This document shows, one piece after another, positions 43,724-62,541 of a stretch of 64,000 bases of DNA. The stretch is from Leptolyngbya sp. Heron Island J. GTDB taxonomy: Bacteria > Cyanobacteriota > Cyanobacteriia > Phormidesmidales > Phormidesmidaceae. The translations under genes and the position numbers were made by a program. Location of the stretch: contig NZ_AWNH01000008.1 of NCBI RefSeq assembly GCF_000482245.1, positions 62,001 to 126,000 of the forward strand. Reading direction: 5' to 3'. Under the pieces are notes generated by a model that saw nothing but the letters and a program-made list of their open reading frames with translations, made no database searches and was not told the DNA's origin. The number at the start of each line of letters is the position of its first letter. Within the stretch, counting starts at the first letter, position 1.

Positions 43724-45469
43724 ATGGCTCGACTCGATTACTTTGCCCCAGGTGTATATGTAGAAGAAATCCCCAGCGGTAGCCGGGCGATTCAAGGCGT
43801 AAGTTTGAGTGTGGCCGGTTTTGTCGGATTTACAGAAGATATACGCGGGGATGCTGAGATTTTTCAGCCGCAGCTAATCACCAGTTGGAGTCAGTATTTA
43901 GACAGTTTTGCCAAACTCGGGTCCGATGGCTTTACCGATTTTGGTGCTTATTTACCCTTTGCTGTTAAGGGTTGGTTTGATAATGGTGGCGGTCGCTGCT
44001 GGGTGATTAGCCTCGGCACTCAGCTGCCTCTGGCGAATACCGCCCCTGAAGAAGATACCGACAACATTCCATTACCCGCTACACCTATTCTCACCTCAGG
44101 CCGCAAAAAGTCCCTGGAATTTACAGTCAAGCCCGAACGTGAAGATGAAGGTCGTGTCCGGGTCTTTATTGAACCGGATGACCCCCAACCTTCAGATGAT
44201 CCTGATGATGAGCCGTTTAACAGCGGCGAATTTTTTAGGGTGAAAGTGCTGGCGGGCAACGGCGATGAGAAAACATTTCGTCACTTAACCATGCAAAACC
44301 CGGAGGGCGTCGCTGAAGAAGATCGCTCTGCGGGGATGTATATTATGCACGCCCGGTCTGAACCTGAAACTGCTGACGACGAGGGCGTGCTGCTGCAGGA
44401 GTATATTGATATTACTATCGACCCAGAACCGGCATTACCCCTGGCCAAACGTCCTAGCAACGGGGTATTCGACATTAAACCCCGGCGGGTGCCCTATCGC
44501 ACCAAACGCTGGTATAAAGAACTGGCAGGCAACAGAAAACGTCGCACGGGTATTCAAGGTCTGTTTGAGATTGATGAAATTGCCATGGTGGCTTGCCCGG
44601 ACCTGATGCTGGTTTACCAAAAAGGTTTGATGGGGCTGCCGGAAGTGCATGGCATTATGGAAACCATGTTACAAAGCTGTGAGACAGCTGCACCGGGACC
44701 GGCTTACCGGATGGCGGTGCTTGATCCACCGCCGGTGAAGCCGCGTAAAAGTGCCATGCCGGTGAAGCCACAACAACAAACTCCCCAGGATGTGGAATCT
44801 TGGCTGATGGACCACTTTGGCCGCCGTAGCCAGTTTGGGGCGCTCTACTATCCTTGGATTCAGGTGCCCAACCCCAAGGATTCGGGTAAGCCGATTTCTG
44901 TTCCTCCCTGTGGCCACATGATGGGGCTATGGTGTCGCACTGATGAGTCTCGTGGTATCCATAAGGCTCCAGCTAATGATATTCCGCGCGGCGTGGTTGG
45001 TCTCGCCTATGATACAAATTTCCGTGAACAGGAGTTGTTAAACCCGAAGGGGATTAACTGTATTCGTAAGTTTCGCAACCGTGGCACCCTGGTATGGGGT
45101 GCTCGCACTCTGGCCCAGCTGGATGATACAGATTGGCGCTATGTTAGTGTGCGCCGGCTGATGAGCTATATTGCTAAATCCATTGAAGAGGGTACCCAGT
45201 GGGCGGTATTTGAACCCAACGATGAGGATCTGTGGGCTAGGGTGACTCGCACCGTGAGAAACTTTTTGGAGCGGATCTGGCGACAGGGGGCGCTGTTTGG
45301 TAGTACACCGGAAGAAGCGTTTTATGTAAAGTGCGATCGCGAACTCAACACTCCAGAGACCATGAAGCTGGGCATGTTGTTTATCGAAATTGGCGTCTGC
45401 CCGGTGAGACCTGCTGAATTTGTTATCTTCCGAATTCGTCAATGGGACCCTTCACAGGATGAAGCATAA
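43724..45469 (+). CDS. Contractile injection system sheath protein (Afp2-4-like)
   Basis: 581 residues of the phage-tail-sheath family. It starts ARLDYFAPGVYVEEIPSGSRAIQGVSLSVAGFVGFT, the usual eCIS sheath opening. The C-terminal domain has IHKAPAN, LNPKGINCIRKFRNRGTLVWGARTL, RYVSVRRLMSYIAKSIEEGTQW, EPNDEDLWARV and ENPxx-like closing strands (GVCPVRPAEFVIFRI). The middle ~280 residues are a variable, acidic insertion facing the outside of the sheath. It polymerises around the tube and contracts. Only one sheath gene is visible, against three in Afp. First gene of the plus-strand locus. Confidence 0.94.
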   Translation: MARLDYFAPGVYVEEIPSGSRAIQGVSLSVAGFVGFTEDIRGDAEIFQPQLITSWSQYLDSFAKLGSDGFTDFGAYLPFAVKGWFDNGGGRCWVISLGTQLPLANTAPEEDTDNIPLPATPILTSGRKKSLEFTVKPEREDEGRVRVFIEPDDPQPSDDPDDEPFNSGEFFRVKVLAGNGDEKTFRHLTMQNPEGVAEEDRSAGMYIMHARSEPETADDEGVLLQEYIDITIDPEPALPLAKRPSNGVFDIKPRRVPYRTKRWYKELAGNRKRRTGIQGLFEIDEIAMVACPDLMLVYQKGLMGLPEVHGIMETMLQSCETAAPGPAYRMAVLDPPPVKPRKSAMPVKPQQQTPQDVESWLMDHFGRRSQFGALYYPWIQVPNPKDSGKPISVPPCGHMMGLWCRTDESRGIHKAPANDIPRGVVGLAYDTNFREQELLNPKGINCIRKFRNRGTLVWGARTLAQLDDTDWRYVSVRRLMSYIAKSIEEGTQWAVFEPNDEDLWARVTRTVRNFLERIWRQGALFGSTPEEAFYVKCDRELNTPETMKLGMLFIEIGVCPVRPAEFVIFRIRQWDPSQDEA

Positions 45470-45513: not shown

Positions 45514-45972
45514 ATGGCTGAACTATTAACAGCGTGTCGGTTTTATTTTGAAGCTGACGGTGTTGCGGAAAAGTTAGTGTTGGAAGTCGCGGGGCTTTCT
45601 GTTGAGTCTCCGGTGGCTGGAGATGGCGGTGTTCACGGGTCTGGTAAAAGCGGCGTGCGGGTGCGTCAAGCTACACCTACAGTGGAAAAGTTCTCTAATG
45701 TCACCGTCAAGATGGTGGCTACCACCGATGTGGATCTGTATGAATGGTACAAAAACTGCAATACCAACGACGGGGGCTCTTCCGCCTGGGATAGCAATCG
45801 TAAAGCCGCTTCGGTGAGCGCCTATGACCAGGCTGGCAATATGCAAGCCCGCTGGGAACTGGTCAATGCCTATCCCTGTAAATACGAAGGGCCGAGCTTT
45901 ACCGCTGGTGACAGCAATATGGCCAACGAGACCCTGGAGCTGGTCCACGAAGGCATTACCCGCGTGCAATAG
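45514..45972 (+). CDS. Inner tube protein 1 (Afp1/5-like)
   Basis: 152 residues of the phage tube family (T4 gp19-like): LLTACRFYFEADGV, GLSVESPVAG, the beta-hairpin TVEKFSNVTVKMVATTDVDLYEWY, ASVSAYDQAGNMQARWELVNAYPCKYEGPSFTAGDSNMANETLELVHEGI. Tube monomers stack as hexameric rings inside the sheath. It follows the sheath gene by 44 bp with an AAGGAG site before the ATG. It differs clearly from the next tube protein, so the two may make distinct rings (tube versus adaptor). Confidence 0.92.
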   Translation: MAELLTACRFYFEADGVAEKLVLEVAGLSVESPVAGDGGVHGSGKSGVRVRQATPTVEKFSNVTVKMVATTDVDLYEWYKNCNTNDGGSSAWDSNRKAASVSAYDQAGNMQARWELVNAYPCKYEGPSFTAGDSNMANETLELVHEGITRVQ

Positions 45973-46007: not shown

Positions 46008-46505
46008 ATGCCCAGCGTTGATTTTCCATCTGAGCTATTACTGGCCAGTCGGTTTTATTTTGAACTCTCCATTAAGTTAAAAGGAGGTAACGAGACCGTT
46101 GATGCTGTCTTTTTGGAATGTCAAAAATTTCAGAAAGAGCAAAAAAATATCGAGATTGTTGAAGTGGCCAAAGCCCAATGGGCCAATGCCAAAATGGGGC
46201 AGTTGGTCACTACTAAGATCCCCAGTCGTTCCACTATTGAGAATCTGGTACTTAAACGCGGGCTAACAGATTCTCTGGCCCTGTGGCAATGGTTTACAGA
46301 CATTGAATCCGGGAAATGGGACAGCGACCATGTCTCTGCCGGTTCTCTGAATGTCTTTGACCAGGCAGGTACGGTAAAAGCCAAGTTTGACTTTACCGGG
46401 GCCTGGCCCACGCGCTATAGCACCTCAGAGATGAATGCCCAAAGTAATGACATGGCGATTGAGGAATTGGAGTTAGCTGTTGATGGGTTTACGCGGAGTC
46501 AGTAG
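46008..46505 (+). CDS. Inner tube protein 2
   Basis: 165 residues, the same fold as the previous gene: LLLASRFYFELSI, ALECQKFQKEQ-like front, TKIPSRSTIENLVLKRGLTDSLALWQWF, LNVFDQAGTVKAKFDFTGAWPTRYSTSEMNAQSNDMAIEELELAVDGF. The loop EVAKAQWANAKMGQL is absent from tube 1. An AGGAGG site is 7 bp from the ATG. It is the second of three tube-like genes; which one forms the bulk of the tube cannot be settled by eye. Confidence 0.9.
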   Translation: MPSVDFPSELLLASRFYFELSIKLKGGNETVDAVFLECQKFQKEQKNIEIVEVAKAQWANAKMGQLVTTKIPSRSTIENLVLKRGLTDSLALWQWFTDIESGKWDSDHVSAGSLNVFDQAGTVKAKFDFTGAWPTRYSTSEMNAQSNDMAIEELELAVDGFTRSQ

Positions 46506-46767: not shown

Positions 46768-47121
46768 ATGTTTCAAACGGAGTTTGAATTCTCATTACCT
46801 AAAGGCTACTACGATGGCGAGGGGAATCTCCATCGTAAGGGAAAAATGCGGCTGGCTAAGGCGGCGGATGAGATTACACCAATGCGCGACCCCAGGGTCA
46901 AGGCCAACCCGGCCTATGCGACGGTTTTGGTGCTGTCGCGAGTGGTGATTCAGCTGGGGGCTCTGTCGGATATTACTCCCCGGATTATTGAAGATTTATA
47001 CGCGGCAGATTTGAATTATCTCTATACGTTTTACCGCGAGATTAATGATCTGCCGCCCCTAACACCGTCAGCCCAATCCACTAGCCCAGATTCTGGAGAA
47101 GCCGATGGTCAGACTATCTGA
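46768..47121 (+). CDS. Tail-assembly protein (T4 gp-like), first of two paralogues
   Basis: 117 residues. It shares FSLPKGYYDGEGNLHRKGKMRLAKAADEITPMRDP, PAYATVLVLSRVVIQLG and ITPRIIEDLYAADLNYLYTFYREIND with the protein at 60053. This family is the usual small protein after the tube genes in extracellular and cyanobacterial injection systems, probably a chaperone-like assembly factor. The C-terminus here is a low-complexity Ser/Pro tail (PPLTPSAQSTSPDSGEAD) in place of the Cys pair in the paralogue. It overlaps the next gene by 17 bp. Confidence 0.85.
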   Translation: MFQTEFEFSLPKGYYDGEGNLHRKGKMRLAKAADEITPMRDPRVKANPAYATVLVLSRVVIQLGALSDITPRIIEDLYAADLNYLYTFYREINDLPPLTPSAQSTSPDSGEADGQTI

Positions 47122-49561
47122 GTTGGTAAGTCAGATGCGACGACGGATGAGCGAAGGTCAGAACTTTGCTCGCAATCCGTTGCAAATGGTAAAACAGTCG
47201 GTATACAAATATGGCATTCTTCTCTATGGTAAGCTCTCACTGCCGACGGGAAGTAAGGGCAAGGAGACCACGGCTGATTCTCCAGCGGAACTAGAATTGG
47301 GCCATGGGGAGGATAGGAATACCAATGGGGCAGATGCCATAGGTGTTATTAACAATGGTGCGTCTCATGCACCATTTCAAACAACTGACATATCCTCTCT
47401 GAAACCAGAGCCCATCATTCACCAGCAGCCAACCCTATGGCAACCGACCCTACAGCCAGGGGAACGATTACAGGGAGGCTGGTGGGGCGTATACACGATC
47501 AAATCCTGTGTGTATGCCCAAGACTGGATTCGTCGTTATGACGGTCTCCAGGACAATGGCAGTGAGCCGGTTTGGATTTATGAGTATTGCTTGGATGAGG
47601 AGCATTGGTCAGCAGAGGAGATTGACGAGCGTAAGCGTCGCTTTAAGCATTTAATTGATCTAAATTTACGGCTGGGAGAAGGGTCTGATTTTAGAATTGT
47701 TCGTCCTAAGGATGTGATTAAACCAGCGGGTAATCGTGTTTACCTAATTACTCGCCCGGTGCTTCAAAGTCTTACCCTGAATGAGTTTCTAACGCAGCAG
47801 CCCATTCCCTGGACCCGCAGTCAGATAGAGCGTTTTCTCTCCCAAGTTTTGCAGTCTCTGCAATATTTGCAAACCTATCTGGTAAATTGGCCCGGCGATC
47901 GCTGGGAGCAAAAACTATCCCATGGCAATTTATCCGGTGACTGTCTTTGGATTCGGCTGCCAGAGGGCCACACTGAGCTAAATGAACATCCATTTTTTGT
48001 CTACTTGGGTCGCTTTCCCCTCTGGGAACATCTTGTCTGGCCCCACCCCATGGCTGAGCACAATGATCAGATGGGGAGCGTTGATGACGATTTACAGGCA
48101 TTGGCCCATATCACCTTTGACCTGATCCGGGGTTATCCTAGCGATGATGATCCAGCGAATATCAGCCTGTGGCCCGATGATGACAGTATGCGGGTGCTGT
48201 ATCCCTACATACTACAGATCCTAGGCCGTGGCGAAGGATTTAAGTCTATTGACAGTGCGCTTTCGGTGCTCCAAACGCTGCCAGCGAACCAATATCCAGT
48301 GGCGGAGCCGGAAGAGCCACTAGTTGAAGAGTCTCCAGTCGAGTCCTCCTCTTTTCCATCTCTGCTGTTGTGGCTGTTGGGGGGTGGTCTCCTGCTGGGT
48401 CTGATGGTCTGGTTCGCGGCGGTGCTCAAGCCGGAAAGCCGTGAATTTGCCTGTAAACTTCCCTGTCGCCTGGAGGATGTGGAAAGCTTGGGTCGTAATC
48501 AGTCCCTACGATATGGTATTGAACAAGGAAGTTCTTGGGAGAAAGCCTTCTTTAGTACCCTGACGTCTCCGCTCAAAGCGCCTCGACCTGTTTCTCAATT
48601 TGGTGAGATGACCGAGCTGCAGCGTACACTGCAGGAAAGGGATGCTGATTTTCTCCTGGAGAAGGCTAGTAATGTTCGTATCCCTAGGAACTTACTGTTT
48701 GCGTCGCTGCGTACGAATAGTCTGGATACTGCCCTGATTCAAAATTCTCCTGACTTGCCCAGCGACCTGGAAAAACGAACCGTTGGCTATGACGGCATTA
48801 CCATCTTTGTCACCCATAGCAATGCCCAGCGTCAAGATAATATTCCCAATCGGCTGCGGGGACGGATTAGTTTGCAACAGCTGCGTCGAGTGCTGCTGGA
48901 CCCTAATGCGCCGCTGGATGGGGCCAGAGTTGAGATTTACTGGCCTGAGGATGAGGTCACGGTCAATACACTACGGGATATTTTGTTTGAGCGCGACGCC
49001 GACAAATTGATATTTGAGCAACGGTATAACGAAGAACAGCCTTTTGACTCATCATCGCTTGTCTCACAGCAGAGAAACATGTATGAACACATGCTGGATG
49101 ATTTTGAAACTAATGCTCGGGCCGACAATGAGGATATTATTGGCATTGGCTTTAATCGAATTAGTCGGCTTATAGGTCAGTGTTCGGTGTATCCCCTGGC
49201 GCTGGTAGATAAGGGACGTACCCATCATTTGTTTGTGGATGCCCATGGTGCTCCCATTGATCAAACTACGGATCTGTGTGGGGATAAGGGCACCTACTGG
49301 GTGAATGATCGGTTGTTTCAACCATCAGCAGTGACCTATCCCCTCGCCTATGAGATGGCGGTGGTCTATCATCGCCCGGTGGATGTGGACTCGTGCGATC
49401 GCTACACGGAAGGCTGTGCTAAAGGTCAATTGCTGGCGGATAAGCTGCTCACGCCAGAAGGTCAGTATCTACTCAGCGAGGTGGGTCTGGTGCCGGTGTT
49501 ACCCATTTCAGAAATTCGGCAAATGGTGTGGAGTTCGATGGGCCAAGGAGAGACCCCATGA
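47105..49561 (+). CDS. Pseudokinase-TM-periplasmic-binding-protein fusion (candidate membrane anchor)
   Basis: 818 residues and unlike any standard injection-system component I know. Residues ~120-390 resemble a protein kinase fold that has lost catalysis: the catalytic loop reads SHGNLSGDCLW (~272) instead of HRDxKxxN, and no DFG is present (VYLGRFPLW). DDDLQALAHITFDLIRG matches the kinase helix F region. A single hydrophobic helix lies at ~417-441 (LLLWLLGGGLLLGLMVWFAAVL). Residues ~450-818 look like a PstS-type substrate-binding domain (YDGITIFVTHSNAQ, LRGRISLQQLRRVL, PLAYEMAVVY, LLTPEGQYLLSEVGLVPV). Topology would place the kinase part inside and the binding domain in the lumen or periplasm. 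It sits among tube, spike and baseplate genes, so it may anchor the machine or gate it. The fold calls are by eye and need structure prediction. Confidence 0.75.
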   Translation: MVRLSELVSQMRRRMSEGQNFARNPLQMVKQSVYKYGILLYGKLSLPTGSKGKETTADSPAELELGHGEDRNTNGADAIGVINNGASHAPFQTTDISSLKPEPIIHQQPTLWQPTLQPGERLQGGWWGVYTIKSCVYAQDWIRRYDGLQDNGSEPVWIYEYCLDEEHWSAEEIDERKRRFKHLIDLNLRLGEGSDFRIVRPKDVIKPAGNRVYLITRPVLQSLTLNEFLTQQPIPWTRSQIERFLSQVLQSLQYLQTYLVNWPGDRWEQKLSHGNLSGDCLWIRLPEGHTELNEHPFFVYLGRFPLWEHLVWPHPMAEHNDQMGSVDDDLQALAHITFDLIRGYPSDDDPANISLWPDDDSMRVLYPYILQILGRGEGFKSIDSALSVLQTLPANQYPVAEPEEPLVEESPVESSSFPSLLLWLLGGGLLLGLMVWFAAVLKPESREFACKLPCRLEDVESLGRNQSLRYGIEQGSSWEKAFFSTLTSPLKAPRPVSQFGEMTELQRTLQERDADFLLEKASNVRIPRNLLFASLRTNSLDTALIQNSPDLPSDLEKRTVGYDGITIFVTHSNAQRQDNIPNRLRGRISLQQLRRVLLDPNAPLDGARVEIYWPEDEVTVNTLRDILFERDADKLIFEQRYNEEQPFDSSSLVSQQRNMYEHMLDDFETNARADNEDIIGIGFNRISRLIGQCSVYPLALVDKGRTHHLFVDAHGAPIDQTTDLCGDKGTYWVNDRLFQPSAVTYPLAYEMAVVYHRPVDVDSCDRYTEGCAKGQLLADKLLTPEGQYLLSEVGLVPVLPISEIRQMVWSSMGQGETP

Positions 49562-49707
49562 CCCCACAACAGCTTGAAACACTGGCTAGGAAGATACTGC
49601 AGGACCCGGTGCTGATGGGGAAACTATGCGATCGCATTTACTATCTGCTCAATGCCGATAGGCGATTACAGCAAGAGCGTGGAGGCCGCTATGACCGATC
49701 CATTTAA
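49558..49707 (+). CDS. 49-residue injection-system locus protein
   Basis: A short ORF whose ATG overlaps the stop of the previous gene (ATGA) and whose end overlaps the next gene's ATG at 49691 by 17 bp. The product is a helix (ETLARKILQDPVLMGKLCDRIYYLL) followed by a basic tail (RRLQQERGGRYDRS). Tight overlaps on both sides support translation. Small proteins with a CDRxYxLL-type helix occur between tube-like and baseplate genes in cyanobacterial loci, by recollection only. Confidence 0.6.
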   Translation: MTPQQLETLARKILQDPVLMGKLCDRIYYLLNADRRLQQERGGRYDRSI

Positions 49708-50191
49708 CTATGTCACCACCAATCGGTTCTATGTAGAAATCGACAGTGAGATTTCGGCTTCATTTAGCGAATGTTCTGGCATTGGCGTTACCCTCAAAAC
49801 CCAGTCAATTGTTGAAGGTGGCGTCAATGGCCAGCAGCGATTTTTTATCGACAATCCAGAATTTTCCAATGTTGTCCTCAAGCGAGGCATTACCAATAGT
49901 GTCGACTTTTGGACATGGATCAAAGCCGTCCTCAACAACCAATCCAAACAGCGACGCAACGTCAGCATTTTGTTATTTAACCAGGCCGGAGACACTATGC
50001 AAGCCTGGACCCTGGTTGGGGCCATCCCCGTCGGCTGGAAAGCCGATGCCCTCCAGGCCAGTGCCGACAGTGTTGCCTTAGAAGAACTGACCCTGGCATA
50101 CGAAGGCTTAAAAATTGAAAAAGAAGGCGGCAGCGACACCACCAAACACGACAAGCGGGGTGATACAGGCTACTTCGCGGGGGATAATTGA
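49691..50191 (+). CDS. Tube-like phage tail protein (Afp5-type)
   Basis: 166 residues from the ATG at 49691, which has a GGAGG site just upstream; the longer frame from 49652 is unlikely. It shows the tube family pattern: NYVTTNRFYVEIDSEISASFSECSGIGV, VNGQQRFFIDNPEFSNVVLKRGITNSVDFWTWI, LLFNQAGDTMQAWTLVGAIPVGWKADALQASADSVALEELTLAYEGL. A short polar tail ends it (EKEGGSDTTKHDKRGDTGYF). In eCIS this gene normally caps the tube base and contacts the CIS-tube/LysM protein two genes downstream. Confidence 0.9.
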   Translation: MTDPFNYVTTNRFYVEIDSEISASFSECSGIGVTLKTQSIVEGGVNGQQRFFIDNPEFSNVVLKRGITNSVDFWTWIKAVLNNQSKQRRNVSILLFNQAGDTMQAWTLVGAIPVGWKADALQASADSVALEELTLAYEGLKIEKEGGSDTTKHDKRGDTGYFAGDN

Positions 50192-52935
50192 TGGCCAATA
50201 CTCCACCCGAGCCCGCCTATCTTGACCTGGCCAAACACCGTCCTCCCCTAGGATGGCCGCTGCAGCGGCGTCATTTTCAGTGGCAGACGTTTCCCCTCGG
50301 GCATGGCACTGGCGCAGCCTCTTCTGGAGAGAGTACTCCGGATGTCCAGCCTCTACGTCAGGCTGCTCAATTAGTGGGACTTCCCCCGGAGCTTGGCGAT
50401 GGGTCTGGCTTTTCTAACTTTGTGGATGATACTAGGTATTCTGGACCATTAGATCTTCCAGTAATAGGGGACTTTGATTCTGGTTCTGCGCAAGTTAGGG
50501 AGATCTTTAACCAGCATGTTCCTTCTGAAGATACTGGTTATCCCGGCCCCCTAAATCCCCCAATACTGGGGGACTTTGAGTTTGATCTCCCTCAAGCTGA
50601 TGGGACCACAGAGGCTTTTAATCGGCAAAGTCTTTTTGAAGAGAACCCTGAATCTATAGATAGTCCTACGGCGGGTACTCAGGACATTGCTAGAAAAGAG
50701 GATACTCGTGATTCTGGTCCTCTAAATCCTAGGTCTACAGAGGATACGTCGACAGTTGATCAGTCTGTAGATGACAAATCGATAGATAGTCTTAAGGACA
50801 TCCTTGGTCAAGAAGCGACCACTTATTCAGGCCCCCAAACCCCTAAGCCTGGGGGCTTTGAGTCTGGTCTCCCCCAGGTTTGGGAAAGCCCCAGTATGCC
50901 TGGTGGGGAGAATATAGATGTTTCCATAAGGGGGAACTTCAATCAGAACAATCTTTTCGAAGCCTCTCCCGAGGCTACAGGGAATACATCGACGGTTGAC
51001 CAGCCTGTAGATCATCAACCGATAGACAGTGTCAAATCCCTTTCTCTGGATGGTCAGCCCCCTAGCCCCCTGCAGCGACAGCCCCTGGGGCAACGTCCCC
51101 CCCTCGGGTTTAGCCGACCAGTAATTACAACAGACGCCACGACATCAGACGCCATGGCTCAGCGTCTGCCAAACATTAGGCCAGTTCCCTCCCCGTCTTC
51201 TCTAGATGCCTCCGAGCAATCACGATCTGACTCCTCTGATGGGGCGGAGGTGACGGAATCAGAGAGCAGCCAGCCAGATGTGGTTCAGCCAGTGAATGAT
51301 GAGTCAGTTACCGCTGTACCCCCCACAGAAGCTTCCGCCGCAATTCAGCTCTCTCCAGATCTCCCCCTGGAGCAGGACAGCATCAGCGATATGCCGATGG
51401 CTGATGCTGTGCAGCAGTTGCCAATCGAAACGGCTCCTGAAGCTGAGCCACCAATCGATGCAGTCGTCCACTCACCTGCGGATATCCTGGCTGAACCGGT
51501 GAATGCCATAGACAGTGCCCCAACCGAATCTTCGATTAAACCTACGCTGGCTGACAATCTCTCGGATACAGTTCAATCAGATTCAGAGCCATCCTTCACA
51601 TCTCCGCTACCGCTCTCACCCGAGCAGCTATCGCCCGCACCCGAGCCAGATTCACCAGATTCCCTGGCAGTCACTCAATCTGCTCTGCCATCCTCTGAGC
51701 TGACCATCCCTCCTCAATCTCTCCCTGACCCACCGGCTCTCGATACAGTTTCTCTATCTGAACCGGCCCCAATCGATGAGACTACGATTCACCCCAAACC
51801 CACCTCACCTGAGACAGGTCAACCGACTCCAACACAGCCTATCCCTGAGCAGAGTTCTGATCTTGCTGTAGATACGCCAACAGTTAGCTCTCTTCCAGAA
51901 ACCGTTGCGCAGCTCCGGCTAGATCAACCCGGTCTAGAAAAAACAGAGCCAGCCGCTTTGCCTCATCAGATTCCTTCTACTGAGGAGCAACATGGCTCTG
52001 ATTCTGTTGATCCAAGCAGTCTTCAAGCATTACCAAATCAGATTCCTTCTACTGAGGAGCAACATGGCTCTGATTCTGTTGATCCAAGCAGTCTTCAAGC
52101 ATTACCAAAAGAGACTGCACCCCAACCTACAGAAACTCCAGATGAACGCCAGGCTGCTATTCCACAAGACCAGCCACCAGAGATGCCCTCAGTCTCTGAA
52201 CCACTGCCGCCAGAACTGTCGGTCGAAGCCCCCGACGCGGTTGGGCAGACCATTCAAACCTCTTTACTTTCCGAGGCTGTTACCCAACCCCTGGGCCGAC
52301 ATCAACCCATGTTTGATGGTCTGCAAGCCACGGTAAAGGAACAACCTTCTGTAGAGGTAGCGCGATCTCAAGTCAAACCCACATTCCCAACCATCCAGGC
52401 AAAACAGGTGATGGAGCAGCCATCGGAACAGCCGCTCCGTCCGCTGTCATCCAAACTGGTATCACTCCGATCCGCCTATGGGCTATCCGATGAGTTGTCA
52501 GAACCCTGGTTAGAATCAGCCCCTAGGGCAACCCTTGAAACAGATTTAGACGAGACTCCCGTTGCCAAGACAGCCGAGACGGTCTCTCTATCCGTGACTC
52601 AAGCCCTGGCTGAGATGGCAGAGAACAATACAACCGCCCATATCTCATCCGGCGAAGATGAAGACCAGGCGCTGTGGCAGCTGGCCCACCTGTTGTATAG
52701 CGAGCTAAGGAAGGATTGGCTGGTGCGATCGCACATCTCAGACAATTTCCAACGCGCCAGCCCAGCCCTGATGCCAATCCAGTCCCATAACAGCAAACAC
52801 GCCCACTTGCCCCTGACCCTTTGGCCACCCACTGCTCACCAGCTGGTCACAACTGTCAAACAACAGCTCACCATTAGACTCCGCCACAGCCACCGTCGGG
52901 CTCAACCTTCTACTCTAAGACGACCCATCACTTAA
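50191..52935 (+). CDS. Large disordered Pro/Ser-rich protein with repeat-derived segments
   Basis: 914 residues, mostly low complexity and rich in Pro, Ser, Glu, Asp and Gln, with no recognised globular domain until the end. Residues ~78-240 hold 4-5 degenerate segments (DTGYPGPLNPPILGDFE, DTRYSGPLDLPVIGDFD, TYSGPQTPKPGGFES) spaced by ~40 residues; their DNA matches the intergenic palindromic repeat of this locus. A 24-residue unit is repeated exactly in tandem near residue 592-639 (51965-52108). The last ~110 residues (SLSVTQALAEMAENN, QALWQLAHLLYSELRKDWLVR) may fold as helices. By position it replaces Afp6 between tube and spike genes. It might be a flexible linker, ruler or cargo carrier. 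A TTG at 50188 is the only longer start. Function unknown. Confidence 0.75.
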   Translation: MANTPPEPAYLDLAKHRPPLGWPLQRRHFQWQTFPLGHGTGAASSGESTPDVQPLRQAAQLVGLPPELGDGSGFSNFVDDTRYSGPLDLPVIGDFDSGSAQVREIFNQHVPSEDTGYPGPLNPPILGDFEFDLPQADGTTEAFNRQSLFEENPESIDSPTAGTQDIARKEDTRDSGPLNPRSTEDTSTVDQSVDDKSIDSLKDILGQEATTYSGPQTPKPGGFESGLPQVWESPSMPGGENIDVSIRGNFNQNNLFEASPEATGNTSTVDQPVDHQPIDSVKSLSLDGQPPSPLQRQPLGQRPPLGFSRPVITTDATTSDAMAQRLPNIRPVPSPSSLDASEQSRSDSSDGAEVTESESSQPDVVQPVNDESVTAVPPTEASAAIQLSPDLPLEQDSISDMPMADAVQQLPIETAPEAEPPIDAVVHSPADILAEPVNAIDSAPTESSIKPTLADNLSDTVQSDSEPSFTSPLPLSPEQLSPAPEPDSPDSLAVTQSALPSSELTIPPQSLPDPPALDTVSLSEPAPIDETTIHPKPTSPETGQPTPTQPIPEQSSDLAVDTPTVSSLPETVAQLRLDQPGLEKTEPAALPHQIPSTEEQHGSDSVDPSSLQALPNQIPSTEEQHGSDSVDPSSLQALPKETAPQPTETPDERQAAIPQDQPPEMPSVSEPLPPELSVEAPDAVGQTIQTSLLSEAVTQPLGRHQPMFDGLQATVKEQPSVEVARSQVKPTFPTIQAKQVMEQPSEQPLRPLSSKLVSLRSAYGLSDELSEPWLESAPRATLETDLDETPVAKTAETVSLSVTQALAEMAENNTTAHISSGEDEDQALWQLAHLLYSELRKDWLVRSHISDNFQRASPALMPIQSHNSKHAHLPLTLWPPTAHQLVTTVKQQLTIRLRHSHRRAQPSTLRRPIT
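51965..52108 (+). repeat. Exact 72-bp tandem duplication inside the disordered protein gene
   Basis: Two abutting 72-base copies (51965-52036 and 52037-52108) are identical and in frame. Each encodes a 24-residue unit starting NQIPSTEEQHGSDS in the second copy. No silent difference was found, so the duplication is recent. Confidence 0.9.
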
Positions 52936-52940
52936 CCCAC

Positions 52941-53465
52941 ATGAGCAATCAATCCAAGTTAGAAAAAGCCAAACTGAAACCTCTGCAGGGTGAAAATGCC
53001 AATGAAATTGTCTTTATGTTTAACCCTAAGGAACTGTCCTTTACAAATCAGGTCAACACCTCGGATAATCCCGGCTCGCGGGTAGCCAAATCGGGCCGTC
53101 CCCACGTCAGCTTTAGTGATCTTCCTCCCAAACAACTCGTCATTAAGGATATCTGGTTTGATACCTATGAGACCGGTCAAGATGTTATCGACACCTGTCT
53201 TAAACCCTTTATTGAATCGGTTAACTTTAGCGACAAAAAAGAACGCCCTCCTATCTATCGCTTTACCTGGGGTCCCCATGACTATCTGCAGTCATGCTTT
53301 ATCCAACAGCTGAATTACCGGCTAACAAAGTTTATGCCCGATGGCACCCCTGTGCGGGCTGTGATTGAAAGCCTGGGATTAAAAGAGACCGAAAAACCCT
53401 CAGATAGTAAATCAGCCACGAATAGACAACCTGATCCTGGAGATACTCGCCAAAGCCGCTCATGA
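52941..53465 (+). CDS. CIS-tube/baseplate protein (Afp7-like) without LysM
   Basis: 174 residues. The fold marker is the eCIS tube-contacting domain: KAKLKPLQGENANEIVFMFNPKELSFTNQVN, FSDLPPKQLVIKDIWFDTYETGQDVI, RFTWGPHDYLQSCFIQQLNYRLTKFMPDGTPVRAVIESLGLKE. Usual Afp7 members are ~210-230 residues and end in a LysM domain. Here the protein stops after a polar tail (KPSDSKSATNRQPDPGDTRQ), so the LysM is missing. It connects tube and spike. Its gene begins 5 bp after the disordered protein. Confidence 0.87.
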   Translation: MSNQSKLEKAKLKPLQGENANEIVFMFNPKELSFTNQVNTSDNPGSRVAKSGRPHVSFSDLPPKQLVIKDIWFDTYETGQDVIDTCLKPFIESVNFSDKKERPPIYRFTWGPHDYLQSCFIQQLNYRLTKFMPDGTPVRAVIESLGLKETEKPSDSKSATNRQPDPGDTRQSRS

Positions 53466-53522: not shown

Positions 53523-55226
53523 ATGCCAGTTAGTAATCGCTCTCTACCCAGTATTAAAATTGACAATGAGGATGTCGCCAAGGACATCCTTGAAAATATT
53601 CTGCAGGTGATTATTGAAGAGAGCCTCCATCGCCCCAGTCTGCTGACCCTGGTCATCCGTAATGATTACCAGCCCGGCGTTTCTAACGATGATCCCTGGG
53701 AGCGACAAAAACCATTTCAGATTGGCAAAACAATTCAAATTGGGTTTAGTCCTAGCATCCCCAACGCTGAAGCTAAAAAAGAATCATCAGAAGAGATTCC
53801 CTACCTCTTCCATGGAGAAATTACCGGGTTAGAGACCCAATTTACCGAACAAACCCAGGCTCCGATTATTATCCGCGCCTATGACCATTCCCATCGGCTT
53901 CATCGCGGTTATCATAATCGATCCTTTCAGAATATGACCGACAGCGACGTCGTTGAAAAAATTGCCGATGAGGTAGGTATTAAAATCGACCAGCTTGACA
54001 ACAGCGGTGAACCCCACGACTATATCTTCCAGGAAAATCAAACCAATATGGCCTTTTTACGCCAACGGGCTGCTCGCATTGGGTTTGAGCTGTTTATGTA
54101 TGATGGCAAACTCAATTTTCGCCAACCCAAGTCTGAAGAAACCCTGGAACTGACCTGGTTAGATGATGTGCGCAGTTTCCATGTTCAACTCACTAGTGCA
54201 GAGCAGGTCAAGTCTGTAGAGGTACGCGGCTGGGATTACACCACCAAGGAACCAATTGTTGCCACTGCCGATCAAGAAAATCTGCTTACCCAGATTGAGA
54301 GTGAAGAAGAGTCTGGCACTAAAGCTAGCCAGGCCTTTGACAAACTGCAAGATCCTAAAAGAATTGTGGTCGACCAGCCTGTCTTTAAACGCAAAGAAGC
54401 TGATGCGATCGCACAGGCCCTATGCGACGAAATTAGCGGACAATTCGTCATGGGTGACGCCATGGCCGCAGGCAACCCAGAGATTCGTCCCGGTCGTATG
54501 GTCAAACTGCAAGCGCTAGGCCCCTATACCGGTGAATATTATATTACTGAGACCCGGCACGTTTACATCAATCGCGTTTACGACACCGAATTTAGCGTGC
54601 GCGGCTTACGGGGAGGAGACTTTGCCGAGCGGCTCACATCGGCACCTCCCTTAAAGCCAGGACAGACTCTCCTGGTAGGCATTGTCACTGATAACGAAGA
54701 CCCTGACGAGCTGGGTCGGGTCAAAGTCAAGTTCCCCACCCTGACCGAAGACCACAACAGCAACTGGGCACGAGTTGTGAGCATGGGCGCAGGCAACAGT
54801 CGCGGTTTTGACTGTCTTCCTGAGATTGACGATGAGGTTTTAGTCGCCTTTGAACATGGGGACATTCATCGACCCTATGTATTAGGCGGTGTCTGGAATG
54901 GCGCAGACGCACCGCCCAATACCGTTAGCAAAAATGTACAGGATGGCAAAGTCCGTCTAAGAACAATCCAAACCCGCACGGGGCACAAAATTCAGTTTGT
55001 CGAAGAAGATCAGGATACAAAAGCAGGGGTGTATGTGGAAACCAAAGCGGGACACAAACTACAGATGAATGACAGCGAACAGTTTATGGAATTAATTACC
55101 AAGGGGGGACACCGACTATGTTTAAGTGACAAGGATAAAAGTATTGTTATGGATTCCAAAGGAACAATTGAAATTAAAGCGGCTGGGAATATTTCTGTCA
55201 ACGGCGCAACGATTATGTTGAATTAA
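53523..55226 (+). CDS. VgrG-like central spike/baseplate protein (Afp8-like)
   Basis: 567 residues. The N-terminal part has gp27-like strands (NDDPWERQKPFQIGKTIQIGF, FLRQRAARIGFELFMYDGKLNFRQ). The gp5 OB fold follows at ~385-465: GQTLLVGIVTDNEDPDELGRVKVKFP, ARVVSMGAGNSRGFDCLPEIDDEVLVAFEHGDIHRPYVLGGVWNG. The last ~90 residues are a beta-helical needle (GHKIQFVEEDQDTKAG, SKGTIEIKAAGNISVNG). It trimerises under the tube and carries the PAAR tip encoded next. The length is typical. Confidence 0.94.
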   Translation: MPVSNRSLPSIKIDNEDVAKDILENILQVIIEESLHRPSLLTLVIRNDYQPGVSNDDPWERQKPFQIGKTIQIGFSPSIPNAEAKKESSEEIPYLFHGEITGLETQFTEQTQAPIIIRAYDHSHRLHRGYHNRSFQNMTDSDVVEKIADEVGIKIDQLDNSGEPHDYIFQENQTNMAFLRQRAARIGFELFMYDGKLNFRQPKSEETLELTWLDDVRSFHVQLTSAEQVKSVEVRGWDYTTKEPIVATADQENLLTQIESEEESGTKASQAFDKLQDPKRIVVDQPVFKRKEADAIAQALCDEISGQFVMGDAMAAGNPEIRPGRMVKLQALGPYTGEYYITETRHVYINRVYDTEFSVRGLRGGDFAERLTSAPPLKPGQTLLVGIVTDNEDPDELGRVKVKFPTLTEDHNSNWARVVSMGAGNSRGFDCLPEIDDEVLVAFEHGDIHRPYVLGGVWNGADAPPNTVSKNVQDGKVRLRTIQTRTGHKIQFVEEDQDTKAGVYVETKAGHKLQMNDSEQFMELITKGGHRLCLSDKDKSIVMDSKGTIEIKAAGNISVNGATIMLN

Positions 55227-55284: not shown

Positions 55285-55740
55285 ATGCCAGGTCTACCTG
55301 CAGCTAGATTGGGTGATGCGACAGCCCATGGCGATCCCCTAAAACCTGGACCCTGCAGCTCTAACGTTTTTATCGGTGGCCAAAAAGCCTGGCGTGCCCT
55401 GAGTCCAGCCATGGTAAAGGCACTGTTAGATCAAGCTGAAAAAGCCGCAAAAAGCACCGCTGCAGCAGGTGCAGCTACAACAGAGGCAGAAAGGGCCAAG
55501 CATATGGATGATTTAGCAGATGCGGCAGAAGCAATGGCTAAGATTATGGCATCTACAGATCAACATGCCTGCACCGTTATAAAACTCCTTATTCCAGACG
55601 GCAATGGAGTTGTCACTAAAGGTAGCTCCAGCGTTCTTATCAATGGGCTACCTGCTTGTCGTGTAAATGATCCGATTCAAGAAATAACCAGTATTAATAG
55701 CATCGTCGCCGGAGACCCTACTGTCTTAATTGGAGGCTAA
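55285..55740 (+). CDS. PAAR-domain spike tip protein with helical insert
   Basis: 151 residues. The PAAR repeats are split: LPAARLGDATAHGDPLKPGPCSSNVFIGGQKAWRA at the start and HACTVIKLLIPDGNGVVTKGSSSVLINGLPACRVND...GDPTVLIGG at the end. His/Cys residues that bind the tip metal are visible in AHGDP and ACRVND. An Ala/Lys-rich helical insert (~50-95, LLDQAEKAAKSTAAAGAATTEAERAKHMDDLADAAEAMAKI) interrupts the domain. It caps the spike. Gene is 58 bp after the spike. Confidence 0.9.
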   Translation: MPGLPAARLGDATAHGDPLKPGPCSSNVFIGGQKAWRALSPAMVKALLDQAEKAAKSTAAAGAATTEAERAKHMDDLADAAEAMAKIMASTDQHACTVIKLLIPDGNGVVTKGSSSVLINGLPACRVNDPIQEITSINSIVAGDPTVLIGG

Positions 55741-55754
55741 CAGGAGATATAACA

Positions 55755-56180
55755 ATGGCGCTCACCAACGACTTCTCACCTCCTCATATTGGCGCGGGTC
55801 TTGCCTGTCCCATTCATACCAATGCCCAGGGCAGCTTTCAGCTGAGCCAGGGCACCCGCAACCTGGAAGAAGCCATTAGCATCATCCTCAGAACACGGTT
55901 AGGCGAGCGCGTATACCGCCCCAATTTTGGGTCTCGGCTATCAGAACTGGCCTTTGAACCCATGAACACCGAAACCCTCTCGCTGATTCGCCTGTATGTG
56001 CGAGAAGCCATCGAACTCTGGGAACCCCGCATTGACCTGATCGACATCCTGACAGAGCCCGACCCCAGCACTGGCCAAGTCAATATCACCATTTTGTATC
56101 AACCCAAAGGCAGTTACGATACCCGCAGCATGGTCTATCCCTTCTACCTGATGCCTCCCGAATCCCTCACCAACCTCTAG
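55755..56180 (+). CDS. GPW/gp25 baseplate protein (Afp9-like)
   Basis: 141 residues: an N-terminal stretch, then GTRNLEEAISIILRTRLGERVYRPNFGSRLSELAFEPMNTETLSLIRLYVREAIELWEPRIDLIDI, the core of the gp25 family, and the final NITILYQPKGSYDTRSMVYPFYL. It joins the baseplate wedge to the sheath. It follows the PAAR gene by 14 bp with an AGGAGAT site. No unusual residue. Confidence 0.94.
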   Translation: MALTNDFSPPHIGAGLACPIHTNAQGSFQLSQGTRNLEEAISIILRTRLGERVYRPNFGSRLSELAFEPMNTETLSLIRLYVREAIELWEPRIDLIDILTEPDPSTGQVNITILYQPKGSYDTRSMVYPFYLMPPESLTNL

Positions 56181-56199: not shown

Positions 56200-58560
56200 A
56201 TGTCCCCCGAGTCCCTCACTACCACCGACTACCTGCCCGATCTCCCCAAGGCTAACTTGGATGATCGCACCTTTGACGAACTGGTAGAAGAATGTTTGCT
56301 CCGCATTCCTCGCTACTGCCCTGAGTGGACAAACTACAATGCGGGCGATCCGGGTGTCACCCTGATAGAGCTATTTGCCTGGCTGGTGCACCAAATGCTC
56401 TACCGCTTTAACCAGGTGCCCACCCGTCACTATGTTGCCTTTTTAGAATTGTTAGGGATTCGTCTGCAGCCGCCAGTACCTGCCCGCACCAAGGTAACCT
56501 TTTATCTAACCAAGGCCCAAGCGACGACAAAAGTCATACCAGCGGGTACCGAAATCGCTACAGTGAGGACCGAAAATCAGCCTGCGATTGTATTTACTAC
56601 GGACCAGCCTCTGGTGATTGGTACACCCCGGATCAAACATTTGCTGTTAGGCCTAGAACCCTTGTCATGCCCTACTGATGGAGAACTCGATAATGTCCTC
56701 CGCAGCAATCAAGATTCAGCTAATCTGGAAGTCTCATTACAGTTATTTAAGGCTTGTGATGTTGGTAACTGCGCGTACTTTGTCCTAGATGTCGATATAC
56801 CTGACCAGAGTGAGACTAATATCAGTAATCCTGGTGTTGCTGACTCCGAAACTACTGGCTCAGAGACTGTTAACCAAATCGCAGGGAATGTGCTCGCCTT
56901 TAACTTTAATGGCCCAGCTGCTGTTACCACCGGTATCGACCCCAACAATCCTCCCCTGAGCTGGCAATATTGGGATGGTAGCGATTGGCAGGATGGTATT
57001 CTACGGGAACAAACCGATGACAAAACCAAGGGCTTTAGCTTTGATAAGCTGAGCCAGGGGGGACCAAACCCTGAGGAAGAGGGAGCCGATGTCATCCTAC
57101 ACTTGCCCCGGCAATGGGCCGAAACTACCTTTGGCAACTACACAGGTCACTGGATTCGATGTGTCTATACTGCCCCAAGAAGTACTCTTAATCAGAGCAA
57201 CATTCAGCAGTTTAACTACCAGCGTTCACCCGAAATTACTGGAGTAGCCGTTCGCGCTATTGGTGGTGTCACCCTGGCCAGTGAATGTGTCAAACTTAAA
57301 ACAGAGCTTTTGGGAGTGAGTACCGGCAAGCCAGGACAGGTATTTGAACTTAGCAAACGTCCGGTTTTACAACGTCAGCCCGCAACAGAATATATCGAAG
57401 TTCACCCCCTTAATGCCCCCTCGGAATCGTGGCAAGAAGTTAAACATTTTGGTGCATCCGGAGCCGATGATCCCCACTACCTGATTGATAATGCCAGCGG
57501 GACGGTGCAATTTGGCCCCTTGATCCGGGAGCCCAACCAGCTACAGAAAAAGATTTACGAACGAGCCGCCATTCAATCCTGGGGGCGGCCTAGCCGTATC
57601 CGTCAGTCAGTGACATCGCTGGCTGAATCAGACTATATGCCAGCGGTTTTAGAACCTATAGATCGCTTAAACGAACGTCAGTATGGCAAAGTTCCTCCCA
57701 TTGGTGCAGAGATTTATATGACCACCTATCGTGTGGGCGGCGGCAGCGGTGGCAATGTCTGTGCCGGGGCCTTAAGGGTTTTAAAGTCCTCTATCCCCTA
57801 TGTCAAACAGGTGGTCAACTATGAACCAGCCGAGGGTGGTCGTGATGCTGAATCCCTGAACCAGGCCATGATTCGGGTTCCTGAAATTCTCCGCACCCGA
57901 GAAACAGCCATTAGCCCCGAAGATTTTGAACGCACCGCCCAACAGTTTGACTTAGGCCGCGCTGTTTACTTTGCCCACTGTGTCCGGGCTCCTCATCTCA
58001 CCACCCCCGGTGTGATCCGTTTGTTAATTATTCCCCAGATCAAAATAGAATCATTTGACCAGGGGCTTCATCCCGACCAGCTGCAGCTCCACGATACCTT
58101 CAAACAGTCTCTTCAAGACCATCTCAATTTACATCGAGCGTTGGGCATTCGAGCCACCGTTGAGCCGCCTAACTATGTGGGTATTCAGGTATCCGCCGAG
58201 ATCTATCTGCAGCCCCAATATCAGCAGTCAGCAGATTTGGGATATCTCCAACAAACCTTTATTAAGCAGCTGTATGAGTTTCTTAACCCGATTACCGGCG
58301 GCTTTGATAAACAGGGTTGGCCGTTAGGACGGGCGGTGCAGGCCTCTGATGTGATTGCCCTTTTACAAGATTATCCTGAAGTCCGCTCCGTCGGTCAGGT
58401 ACAGCTATTTTGCTGGCGACGCTACCATCATCAAGACACTGTCGGCTGGATGCGAATTCCTACTGCTATGGTTACTGTGCCCCTGGGAGAATTGGAAATG
58501 GCTACCTCATGGCAGGATGATACCAATCCGGGGCACGCCATTACGTTTATGTCGTTGTGA
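56200..58560 (+). CDS. Baseplate assembly protein J family (Afp11-like)
   Basis: 786 residues. Opening LDDRTFDELVEECLLRIPRYCPEWTNYNAGDPGVTLIELFAWLVHQMLYRFNQVPTRHYVAFLELLGIRLQPPVPARTKVTFYLTKAQ is a clear eCIS baseplate J signature. The middle is variable and acidic (DSETTGSETVNQIAG). The end has the gp6-like segment EILRTRETAISPEDFERTAQQFDLGRAVYFAHCVR and SAEIYLQPQYQQSADLGYLQQTFIKQLYEFLNPITGGFDKQGWPLGRAVQASDVIALLQD. It forms baseplate wedges with the gp25 protein. Confidence 0.94.
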   Translation: MSPESLTTTDYLPDLPKANLDDRTFDELVEECLLRIPRYCPEWTNYNAGDPGVTLIELFAWLVHQMLYRFNQVPTRHYVAFLELLGIRLQPPVPARTKVTFYLTKAQATTKVIPAGTEIATVRTENQPAIVFTTDQPLVIGTPRIKHLLLGLEPLSCPTDGELDNVLRSNQDSANLEVSLQLFKACDVGNCAYFVLDVDIPDQSETNISNPGVADSETTGSETVNQIAGNVLAFNFNGPAAVTTGIDPNNPPLSWQYWDGSDWQDGILREQTDDKTKGFSFDKLSQGGPNPEEEGADVILHLPRQWAETTFGNYTGHWIRCVYTAPRSTLNQSNIQQFNYQRSPEITGVAVRAIGGVTLASECVKLKTELLGVSTGKPGQVFELSKRPVLQRQPATEYIEVHPLNAPSESWQEVKHFGASGADDPHYLIDNASGTVQFGPLIREPNQLQKKIYERAAIQSWGRPSRIRQSVTSLAESDYMPAVLEPIDRLNERQYGKVPPIGAEIYMTTYRVGGGSGGNVCAGALRVLKSSIPYVKQVVNYEPAEGGRDAESLNQAMIRVPEILRTRETAISPEDFERTAQQFDLGRAVYFAHCVRAPHLTTPGVIRLLIIPQIKIESFDQGLHPDQLQLHDTFKQSLQDHLNLHRALGIRATVEPPNYVGIQVSAEIYLQPQYQQSADLGYLQQTFIKQLYEFLNPITGGFDKQGWPLGRAVQASDVIALLQDYPEVRSVGQVQLFCWRRYHHQDTVGWMRIPTAMVTVPLGELEMATSWQDDTNPGHAITFMSL

Positions 58561-58746: not shown

Positions 58747-59925
58747 ATGGTTTCCTTGCCGCAGCCCAATGTTGACCTCACCGTAGCGACGCCTTCCCCA
58801 ATTGATTGGAAGAGTGGCTTAAATGGGGCTGCGGCACCCGCGCCAGGGGAAGTGTTGCTTATACCCGGTAAACTAACAGAAGTCACGGCCAGGGTTAAAA
58901 ATAATAGTCAACAGGCGCTATGGGTGAGTGTGGGGGTCCAGGGTGATTTCCCAGAGAGTTGGTTTACGCCTGAGCTACCCCCTGGGCAGCCGCGAAATGA
59001 AGAGCCTCGACATGGGATCTGGCGTGAGAATGTTGAACTTTCTAGGCAGCAGTCACTCAGGTTTGGCACCGATTATTTTGCACTACAACCCCGAGAAACG
59101 GTTTCTATCAACCTGGGGTTTACGCTACCGAGTCGTTTTTTTGAAGATCCTGAGGCGTTGCGAACTGAGCAGTCGGCTATGCGATCGCACCCCACCTTAA
59201 GCTACGGCAGTGAAATCTTTCTCCACCAGACCGATGATCCCGAGCAGAGTTCAGCCGTCCAGCTGATCGCCTACAAAACCCTGCAGCTCTACCCCCGTCC
59301 TGAGCGCATCTATCAAAAATTTCTGCCCGAATTTTACCAAGAGTCAGACTTTCTCGGACGTTTTCTCAACATTACCGAACAATCCTTTGAACCCGTCTAC
59401 GAGACTACCGAAACCTTTTGGGCCTATTTAGACCCGCTACTCACCCCTAAAGCGCTAGTCCCCTTTTTAGCCCACTGGGTCGCCTGGCCCATGAACCCCA
59501 GCTTAACCCTGAGCCAGCAGCGACGGCTGATCCGCCATGCCGTAGAGATTTACCAATGGCGAGGCACCGCCCGTGGTCTCAAGCTGTGTCTGCATTTGTG
59601 TACAGGGCTAGAGCAGCAACAAATCGAAGTGCTTGAACCCGATGAACGCGAGTTTGCCATCGGCGAGATCACCCTGGGTGACCAACCCAGCCTGGGCGGC
59701 GGCAAAGCCTATCATTTTGTCGTCATACTCAACCCTGACAGTCAGGAACAGTTAGCCAGCCTGGACGAAACCGCTATTCGTACCCTGATTGAACAAGAAA
59801 AACCCGCCTTCTGCACCTACACCCTGGAGATTTCACCCCTAATCACCCCAGCCGATCCAACCGCCACCTCAACATCTCCCACCCCCCATCACCCCATCAC
59901 CCCATCACCCCCATCCCGCCGATGA
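58747..59925 (+). CDS. Tail protein I/baseplate protein (Afp12-like)
   Basis: 392 residues. The core (~180-330) has RPERIYQKFLPEFYQESDFLGRFLNITEQSFEPVYETTETFWAYLDPLLTPKALVPFLAHWVAWPMN, then LRIGREIL-like SQQRRLIRHAVEIYQWRGTARGLKLCLHLCTGL. This is the P2 gpI/Afp12 family that binds fibres. A ~170-residue N-terminal extension (VTARVKNNSQQALWVSVGVQGDF) adds beta strands not seen in short members. The C-terminus is Pro/Thr/Ser low complexity and overlaps the convergent DUF6760 gene by 37 bp. Confidence 0.9.
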   Translation: MVSLPQPNVDLTVATPSPIDWKSGLNGAAAPAPGEVLLIPGKLTEVTARVKNNSQQALWVSVGVQGDFPESWFTPELPPGQPRNEEPRHGIWRENVELSRQQSLRFGTDYFALQPRETVSINLGFTLPSRFFEDPEALRTEQSAMRSHPTLSYGSEIFLHQTDDPEQSSAVQLIAYKTLQLYPRPERIYQKFLPEFYQESDFLGRFLNITEQSFEPVYETTETFWAYLDPLLTPKALVPFLAHWVAWPMNPSLTLSQQRRLIRHAVEIYQWRGTARGLKLCLHLCTGLEQQQIEVLEPDEREFAIGEITLGDQPSLGGGKAYHFVVILNPDSQEQLASLDETAIRTLIEQEKPAFCTYTLEISPLITPADPTATSTSPTPHHPITPSPPSRR

Positions 59926-60052: not shown

Positions 60053-60427
60053 TCAGAGCTTTCCCGACGGGGTTAGCTCCACATTAAAACGATGCTGACA
60101 CTGGGGACACTGGGCCGTCAGCTCCGGTGTAGCCCCCTGGTGCACCTGTTCATAAAACAGCTTTAAATATTGAAAATCCGGTCTAAACAGATTTTCCAAT
60201 AGTTCCGGTGTAATCGTCTCTAGGTCACCCAGTTGTTCAATCACCTGGGATAGCATCACGAAGGTACTGTAGCTTGGATCAGATTGTACGATCGGGTGCT
60301 GCCCACAAACAATTTCATCCTTGGCCGTCGCCAGACGCATTCGTCCCTGTCGATGGAGATTGCCCTGATTGTCAATCAGTCCCTTGGGCAGAACAAATTT
60401 AAAGCTGACAGGAAACAAACTGGTCAT
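60053..60427 (-). CDS. Tail-assembly protein, second paralogue, with Cys pair
   Basis: 124 residues from the ATG at 60427, which overlaps the TPR gene stop (ATGA); a longer frame to 60502 runs inside the TPR gene and is unlikely. It shares FVLPKGLIDNQGNLHRQGRMRLATAKDEI and ITPELLENLFRPDFQYLKLFYEQVH with the protein at 46768. It adds a short C-terminal CPQCQHRF pair, perhaps half of a zinc knuckle. DUF6760 gene follows immediately, as in other eCIS loci. Confidence 0.85.
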   Translation of the reverse strand: MTSLFPVSFKFVLPKGLIDNQGNLHRQGRMRLATAKDEIVCGQHPIVQSDPSYSTFVMLSQVIEQLGDLETITPELLENLFRPDFQYLKLFYEQVHQGATPELTAQCPQCQHRFNVELTPSGKL

Positions 60428-62328: not shown

Positions 62329-62541
62329 AGGAGATTTGTACCAATTATTCTCACCAATCCTAAAGTAATTGTCTATGATTAGCCACAAATCTAAAGCTAT
62401 GTATGGATTTTCTCGACAGCTGCGAAAGTGGGTCGGTTTCACCGTTGTAACTAGAGTTGGGTCAGGGGCATGCCTTGTGGGTGCCCTGACAATGGCGATC
62501 GCAAAGGGAGACAAGGCGGATGGAGACAAGGGAGGGTGCCT
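62329..62541. promoter_or_regulatory. Divergent promoter region of TPR island and cap gene
   Basis: 213 bp between the exported TPR gene (minus) and the DUF4255 gene (plus). It should hold promoters both ways. A GGGAGGG site lies just before the plus-strand ATG. No palindrome stands out. Confidence 0.4.

Follow-up and report, generated by a model that had tools for sequence, protein, structure and literature searches.

A pseudokinase-PstS-like membrane protein in a Streptomyces-type injection-system locus: a candidate cyanobacterial counterpart of CisA

The window, a stretch of 64,000 nucleotides from an 8.06-Mb cyanobacterial genome, carries an injection-system (CIS) gene cluster. Inside this cluster, an open reading frame extends from an ATG at position 47105 to a stop at 49561 on the forward strand. 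Its product of 818 residues is a single-pass membrane protein that combines a pseudokinase, one transmembrane (TM) helix and a PstS-like substrate-binding domain, and we refer to it as KPBP. The following genes could be assigned:

43724..45469, +, CIS sheath
45514..45972, +, first tube protein (A), of the T4 gp19 family
46008..46505, +, second tube protein (B), of the T4 gp19 family
46768..47121, +, tail-assembly-chaperone-like protein (phrog_508, 3.9e-7)
47105..49561, +, KPBP, 818-aa pseudokinase-TM-PstS-like protein
49652..50191, +, third tube protein (C), of the gp19 family, usually the next gene after KPBP throughout the family
50188..52935, +, 915-aa Pro/Ser-rich protein with no family match, between the tube C and Cis7-like genes
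52941..53465, +, CIS_tube / Cis7-like protein
53523..55226, +, VgrG/Cis8-like spike
55285..55740, +, PAAR tip protein
55755..56180, +, gp25/Cis9-like baseplate wedge
56200..58560, +, Cis11-like baseplate J
58747..59925, +, 392-aa Cis12-like tail protein I
62470..63867, +, Pvc16-type cap protein

The initial annotation had placed KPBP between tail-assembly and tube genes, with overlaps. The position is correct and so is the upstream overlap, where the 3′ end of the chaperone-like gene and the start of KPBP share 17 nt. Downstream, a gap of 90 nt separates the end of KPBP from the start of tube C, so that the overlap is restricted to the upstream side. The slot of the Pro/Ser-rich protein is filled by long hypothetical proteins in relatives, including Pseudanabaena. 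None of the cluster genes could be recognised as coding for a tail fibre, as is the case in Streptomyces (PMC12237407). On the opposite strand, a 709-aa TPR protein (60424-62553, -) is encoded between the Cis12-like and cap genes. A caspase-like protein (33910-35034, -; Peptidase_C14, 4.6e-23) is encoded about 9 kb before the sheath gene and possibly provides a link to cell death. The window also codes for a homologue of vitamin K-dependent gamma-carboxylase (26148-27542, +; HTTM 6e-92, VKGC lumenal domain 6e-44).

Solved structures allowed the type of the locus to be assigned. Over its whole length the sheath matches that of the Streptomyces coelicolor CIS (8bky/9gtp, E 7e-106; both PDB entries were confirmed as S. 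coelicolor CIS), while Anabaena All3325 is matched with 3.5e-49 and by the C-terminal part only. For the Cis11-like baseplate J, the match to S. coelicolor 9gtp has an E-value of 3e-96, compared to merely 2.6e-4 for Anabaena All3317. The sole match below 0.01 of the Cis12-like protein is to 9gtp (2.4e-5), and All3315 was not matched. Judged from these comparisons of sheath, Cis11 and Cis12, the locus is a Streptomyces-type (cytoplasmic) CIS, a type labelled subclade IId (PMC10066040). A thylakoid-anchored tCIS of the Anabaena kind, the context assumed in the initial annotation, was rejected on the sheath and baseplate comparison, and the argument that KPBP serves as a thylakoid anchor thus does not carry over. 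The same genome has a second CIS-like locus (L147, L148; G000:C14:176001-213000) with two sheath genes and without KPBP. The 1075-aa Cis12-like protein of this second locus was tested for an Anabaena tCIS assignment and gave no PDB match.

The closest full-length relatives of KPBP are from Leptolyngbya cf. ectocarpi and from a Leptolyngbyaceae MAG. In L002 and L003, both from Leptolyngbyaceae (67% and 61% identity), the gene is intact, has its full length and is found in unchanged gene order. Comparison with these two gives a dN/dS ratio of about 0.13, dS being close to saturation. As the reading frame is intact in both, the gene order is kept and dN/dS is low, KPBP is a real gene; it is under purifying selection. 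Viral contigs were searched for relatives and none were found.

The protein can be divided into five segments:

47105..47239, +, residues 1-45, basic N-terminal segment, candidate docking segment
47240..47455, +, residues 46-117, variable linker (identity 23% to L002, 16% to L003)
47456..48298, +, residues 118-398 (about), pseudokinase domain, from profile and motif evidence
48362..48418, +, residues 420-438, sole transmembrane helix
48467..49558, +, residues 455-818, PstS-like substrate-binding domain

The best conserved part is the pseudokinase (81% to L002, 77% to L003), followed by the binding-protein part (68% and 59%). As a single sequence, KPBP has no match in Pfam or PHROG, and AlphaFold2 models from the window KPBP with L002 and L003 were poor (mean pLDDT 33.7). 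A profile from 19 family members matched PstS proteins (2.5e-8) and kinases (E 1.5e-4) in the PDB. Pfam Pkinase weakly matches nine of the 19 members (best 6e-4) and PBP_like_2 matches 13 (best 6e-10), in two relatives above the gathering cut-off. By hhalign, the kinase region aligned to kinases with 99.3% over 242 columns, and the C-terminal domain to cyanobacterial PstS-like proteins with 99.9% over 279 columns, in each case covering both lobes. In controls with the kinase and PBP pairs swapped, these values dropped to 0.1% for the kinase and 0.5% for the binding protein. KPBP thus belongs by fold to the protein kinase superfamily and, with its C-terminal domain, to the PstS / PBP_like_2 substrate-binding proteins. 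The initial annotation, which had recognised both domains and the single membrane helix from one sequence, had named the absence of either fold, or of a syntenic homologue in other cyanobacterial injection loci, as fatal to its reading; by sequence profile both domains survive, and many syntenic homologues were found.

The loss of the catalytic Asp and of DFG was also correctly noticed, and is accompanied by loss of the lysine. In the window KPBP, the VAIK Lys is replaced by Y159, HRD reads HGN (273-275) and DFG reads GRF (302-304), so that none of the three residues that mark a Ser/Thr kinase as active (the Lys of VAIK, the Asp of HRD and that of DFG) is left. Among 51 family members, 47 have Asn at the position of the HRD Asp and none has Asp, and the DFG Gly is retained in one. 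Lys is retained in 31 of the 51 members and the DFG Asp in 43, and most relatives might still bind nucleotide, as far as can be read from these residues. In the clade of the window KPBP, both have been lost. The C-terminal domain has a near-invariant pair of cysteines (Cys693 in 50 of the 51 members, Cys725 in 49). Both PstS ligand motifs, GSG-x-GI and SGT, are missing at the aligned positions. This makes phosphate sensing by KPBP unlikely, and the phosphate-status sensor considered in the initial annotation was set aside.

With respect to topology, the pseudokinase is predicted to be cytoplasmic and the PstS-like domain to be outside. This is based on an Arg/Lys-rich flank on the N side of the helix in many relatives and on the Cys pair of the outer domain; in the window KPBP itself that flank is acidic, not basic, and positive-inside support comes from the relatives only.

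We searched 390 cyanobacterial genomes for KPBP (full-family match with E <= 1e-60, three kinase-only matches being excluded; 101 genomes) and for the IId sheath (E <= 1e-110; 100 genomes, with a clear gap to the next best genome at about 1e-75), scoring the best few candidates per genome. Both were found in 95 genomes, KPBP only in six, the sheath only in five and neither in 284 (Fisher p 1.7e-76, ignoring kinship). Among the 58 genomes that have only other sheath types, just two carry KPBP. Some of the exceptions are only apparent. In the KPBP-only genomes G067 (L166) and G241 (L164), CIS parts adjoin KPBP after all, and the sheath-only genome G230 (L137) contains a divergent KPBP copy. KPBP and sheath are at most 50 kb apart on one contig in 43 genomes; in others, the assembly is fragmented or the genes of the cluster lie apart. 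Wider contexts and co-occurrence led us to reject the idea that copies with about 30% identity are stand-alone paralogues outside of CIS loci. We conclude that in cyanobacteria a Streptomyces-type CIS is almost always accompanied by KPBP, which appears nearly obligatory for it.

Nine sequences form a clade of cluster-embedded KPBPs, on one side of a branch with support 92/95. They have the gene order chaperone-KPBP-tubeC and share the basic N-terminal segment, which is conserved within this clade; R3, R12, R13, S16, E17, N20, P25, Q27 and Y41 are invariant in six members. In split clusters, KPBP is often found beside tubeC (L117, L119/L144, L137, L141, L051, L176, L178, L179). In the close relatives G019, G056, G060 and G045, it is located 10-16 kb beyond the cluster.

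A possible precursor was found in another cyanobacterium (G374), where a protein of 651 aa (L162:904-2859, -) combines a Ser/Thr kinase, a TM helix and a PstS-like domain. The domain order is the same as in KPBP, but its kinase has retained HRDIKPEN and DYG as intact motifs, and the binding protein keeps GSGTGI. Since this architecture thus exists with HRD and DYG unaltered, KPBP is likely to descend from a receptor kinase of this design. Proteins of 363-370 aa that consist of pseudokinase and TM without a PBP (L163:8729-9823, L165:8035-9183, L171:8874-9962) have the motif HGNLSLDSLL or HGNLSLESLV and no CIS genes nearby. They were left out of the KPBP counts.

The initial annotation knew of no described injection component of this build. 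Two of related build have been described, CisA of Streptomyces and PpkA of the T6SS (PMC12237407, PMC12607579). CIS particles of S. coelicolor float in the cytoplasm, and CisA is needed for contraction and for death of the producer under stress; it is bound to the membrane by one TM helix, has a cytoplasmic N-terminus and an extracytoplasmic domain, and the latter was termed solute-binding-like by its authors (PMC12237407). CisA (SCO4242) and KPBP both belong to a IId-type CIS, are encoded in the cluster and have one TM between domains, the orientation being a prediction for KPBP. They differ in that the N-terminus of CisA is largely unstructured while KPBP has a pseudokinase together with an outer PstS-like domain. 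As stand-ins for SCO4242, we used proteins in the CisA position from Streptomyces plasmids. These have zinc ribbons and match F5/8 type C models, compared to kinase and PBP in KPBP, and the outer domains are unrelated. Judged via these stand-ins, KPBP has neither the zinc ribbon nor the C-terminal domain of the CisA family. The CisA-position proteins L118:33265-35019, L121:32176-33285 and L122:33949-34749 match F5/8 type C / NADase_transloc (best 2e-12) and not binding-protein models, and in view of these matches it may be worth reconsidering whether the outer domain of CisA is solute-binding-like.

PpkA combines a kinase with a TM helix and a periplasmic domain, and its action is mediated by Fha (PMC12607579). 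It shares with KPBP the kinase fold, the TM, an outer domain and the role of a membrane factor of a contractile machine, and in five loci KPBP also has an FHA partner. PpkA is an active kinase, whereas in KPBP the catalytic residues are gone and the outer domain is PstS-like. Kinase-fold membrane proteins inside a CIS locus were also found on Deinococcus plasmids, where the sheaths are 37-38% identical to the window sheath:

L123:11631-16409, -, Deinococcus kinase-FHA-TM-Ig protein
L125:6662-11470, -, Deinococcus kinase-FHA-TM-Ig protein

Unlike KPBP, these proteins have 1592 and 1602 aa, an FHA domain and Ig-like repeats, and they lack a PBP. At the position of the catalytic Asp, one of the pair has HGD and the other HGN. 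Finally, the anchors Cis12 and Cis13 of the Anabaena tCIS (PMC8894136) link machine and membrane in cyanobacteria, as KPBP would do, but they are other proteins of another CIS type. The open-licence literature was searched for a CIS with pseudokinases and none was found.

We consider it moderately probable that KPBP serves the cyanobacterial IId CIS as a dedicated membrane receptor, which docks the particles and permits firing. KPBP would be located in a membrane, plasma or thylakoid; its pseudokinase would face the cytoplasm, and its PstS-like domain the outer side. The dead kinase fold, in the embedded clade together with the basic N-terminal segment, would offer a surface on which the assembled particle can dock, most likely with its baseplate. 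Binding of a ligand or partner to the outer domain could change the conformation or oligomeric state of KPBP, and free cytoplasmic particles might then be recruited to the membrane and be permitted to fire, as has been proposed for CisA. Orientation, docking partner, ligand and role in firing are all inferred. Points that speak against this reading are the distance between gene and cluster in several close relatives, the acidic TM flank of the window KPBP, an outer domain unlike that of the CisA-position proteins, and a co-occurrence count that ignores phylogeny. Of the anchor or sensor proposed in the initial annotation, this is what persists as the best reading, with the thylakoid argument and phosphate sensing removed from it. 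The KPBP family is most likely the cyanobacterial counterpart of CisA, as a functional analogue which is non-homologous by the tests run.

Three other explanations have to be weighed. KPBP might be a phospho-threonine signalling scaffold which, comparable to PpkA and Fha, controls assembly or timing by binding or activating a kinase or FHA partner and has no contact with the particle. In five cyanobacterial loci, a gene for an FHA-domain protein directly follows KPBP, with distances ranging from an overlap of 31 nt to a gap of 13 nt:

L117:4692-5393, FHA protein downstream of KPBP
L140:4961-5605, FHA protein downstream of KPBP
L141:5418-6047, FHA protein downstream of KPBP
L168:1928-2461, FHA protein downstream of KPBP
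L178:8462-9163, FHA protein downstream of KPBP

The Deinococcus kinase-FHA-TM proteins adjoin Cis12- and Cis7-like genes, and PpkA, with its kinase-TM-periplasmic layout, takes part in recruiting T6SS components at the membrane (PMC12607579). This recurrence of kinase-fold membrane proteins in contractile systems keeps the scaffold alive, but KPBP cannot be a normal kinase and no relative of these FHA proteins is found beside KPBP in the other contexts examined, so that we consider it rather unlikely.

It is improbable that KPBP is a permanent structural anchor which, like Cis13 of Anabaena, replaces the tail fibre and does not sense. The TM of KPBP and the lack of a recognised tail-fibre gene would fit such an anchor, as would the length of the Cis12-like protein, which has 392 aa while the extended Cis12 of Anabaena has residues up to about 1,100 (PMC8894136). 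A plain anchor would nevertheless have no need for a binding-protein domain of 360 residues, which is conserved family-wide, and purified Streptomyces particles contain no CisA (PMC12237407). A cargo or effector, or a protein for self-protection that is carried along with the cluster, might be suspected as KPBP is the most divergent of the compared cluster genes (67%, compared to 82-98% for its neighbours). Yet KPBP is kept family-wide with the sheath, is usually encoded inside the structural block and not at the effector end, and is a large, membrane-anchored protein without a match to a toxin domain, which makes this explanation very improbable.

Returning to the receptor, we tentatively suggest a more general picture, which we hold to be possible but short of probable. 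The IId CISs may share a lineage-specific slot for a bitopic membrane receptor that licenses firing, and this slot would be filled by CisA in Streptomyces, by the kinase-FHA-Ig proteins in Deinococcus and by the pseudokinase-PstS protein in cyanobacteria. In the latter, a PBP-sensing receptor kinase would have been captured and turned into an inactive docking switch. If this is true, the moment at which the cell fires this self-directed machine would depend on a small molecule from outside. CisA of Streptomyces is the only known case that concerns membrane recruitment and the firing cue of a cytoplasmic CIS. KPBP is a candidate for its cyanobacterial counterpart, and many cyanobacterial CISs are not of the thylakoid-anchored kind.
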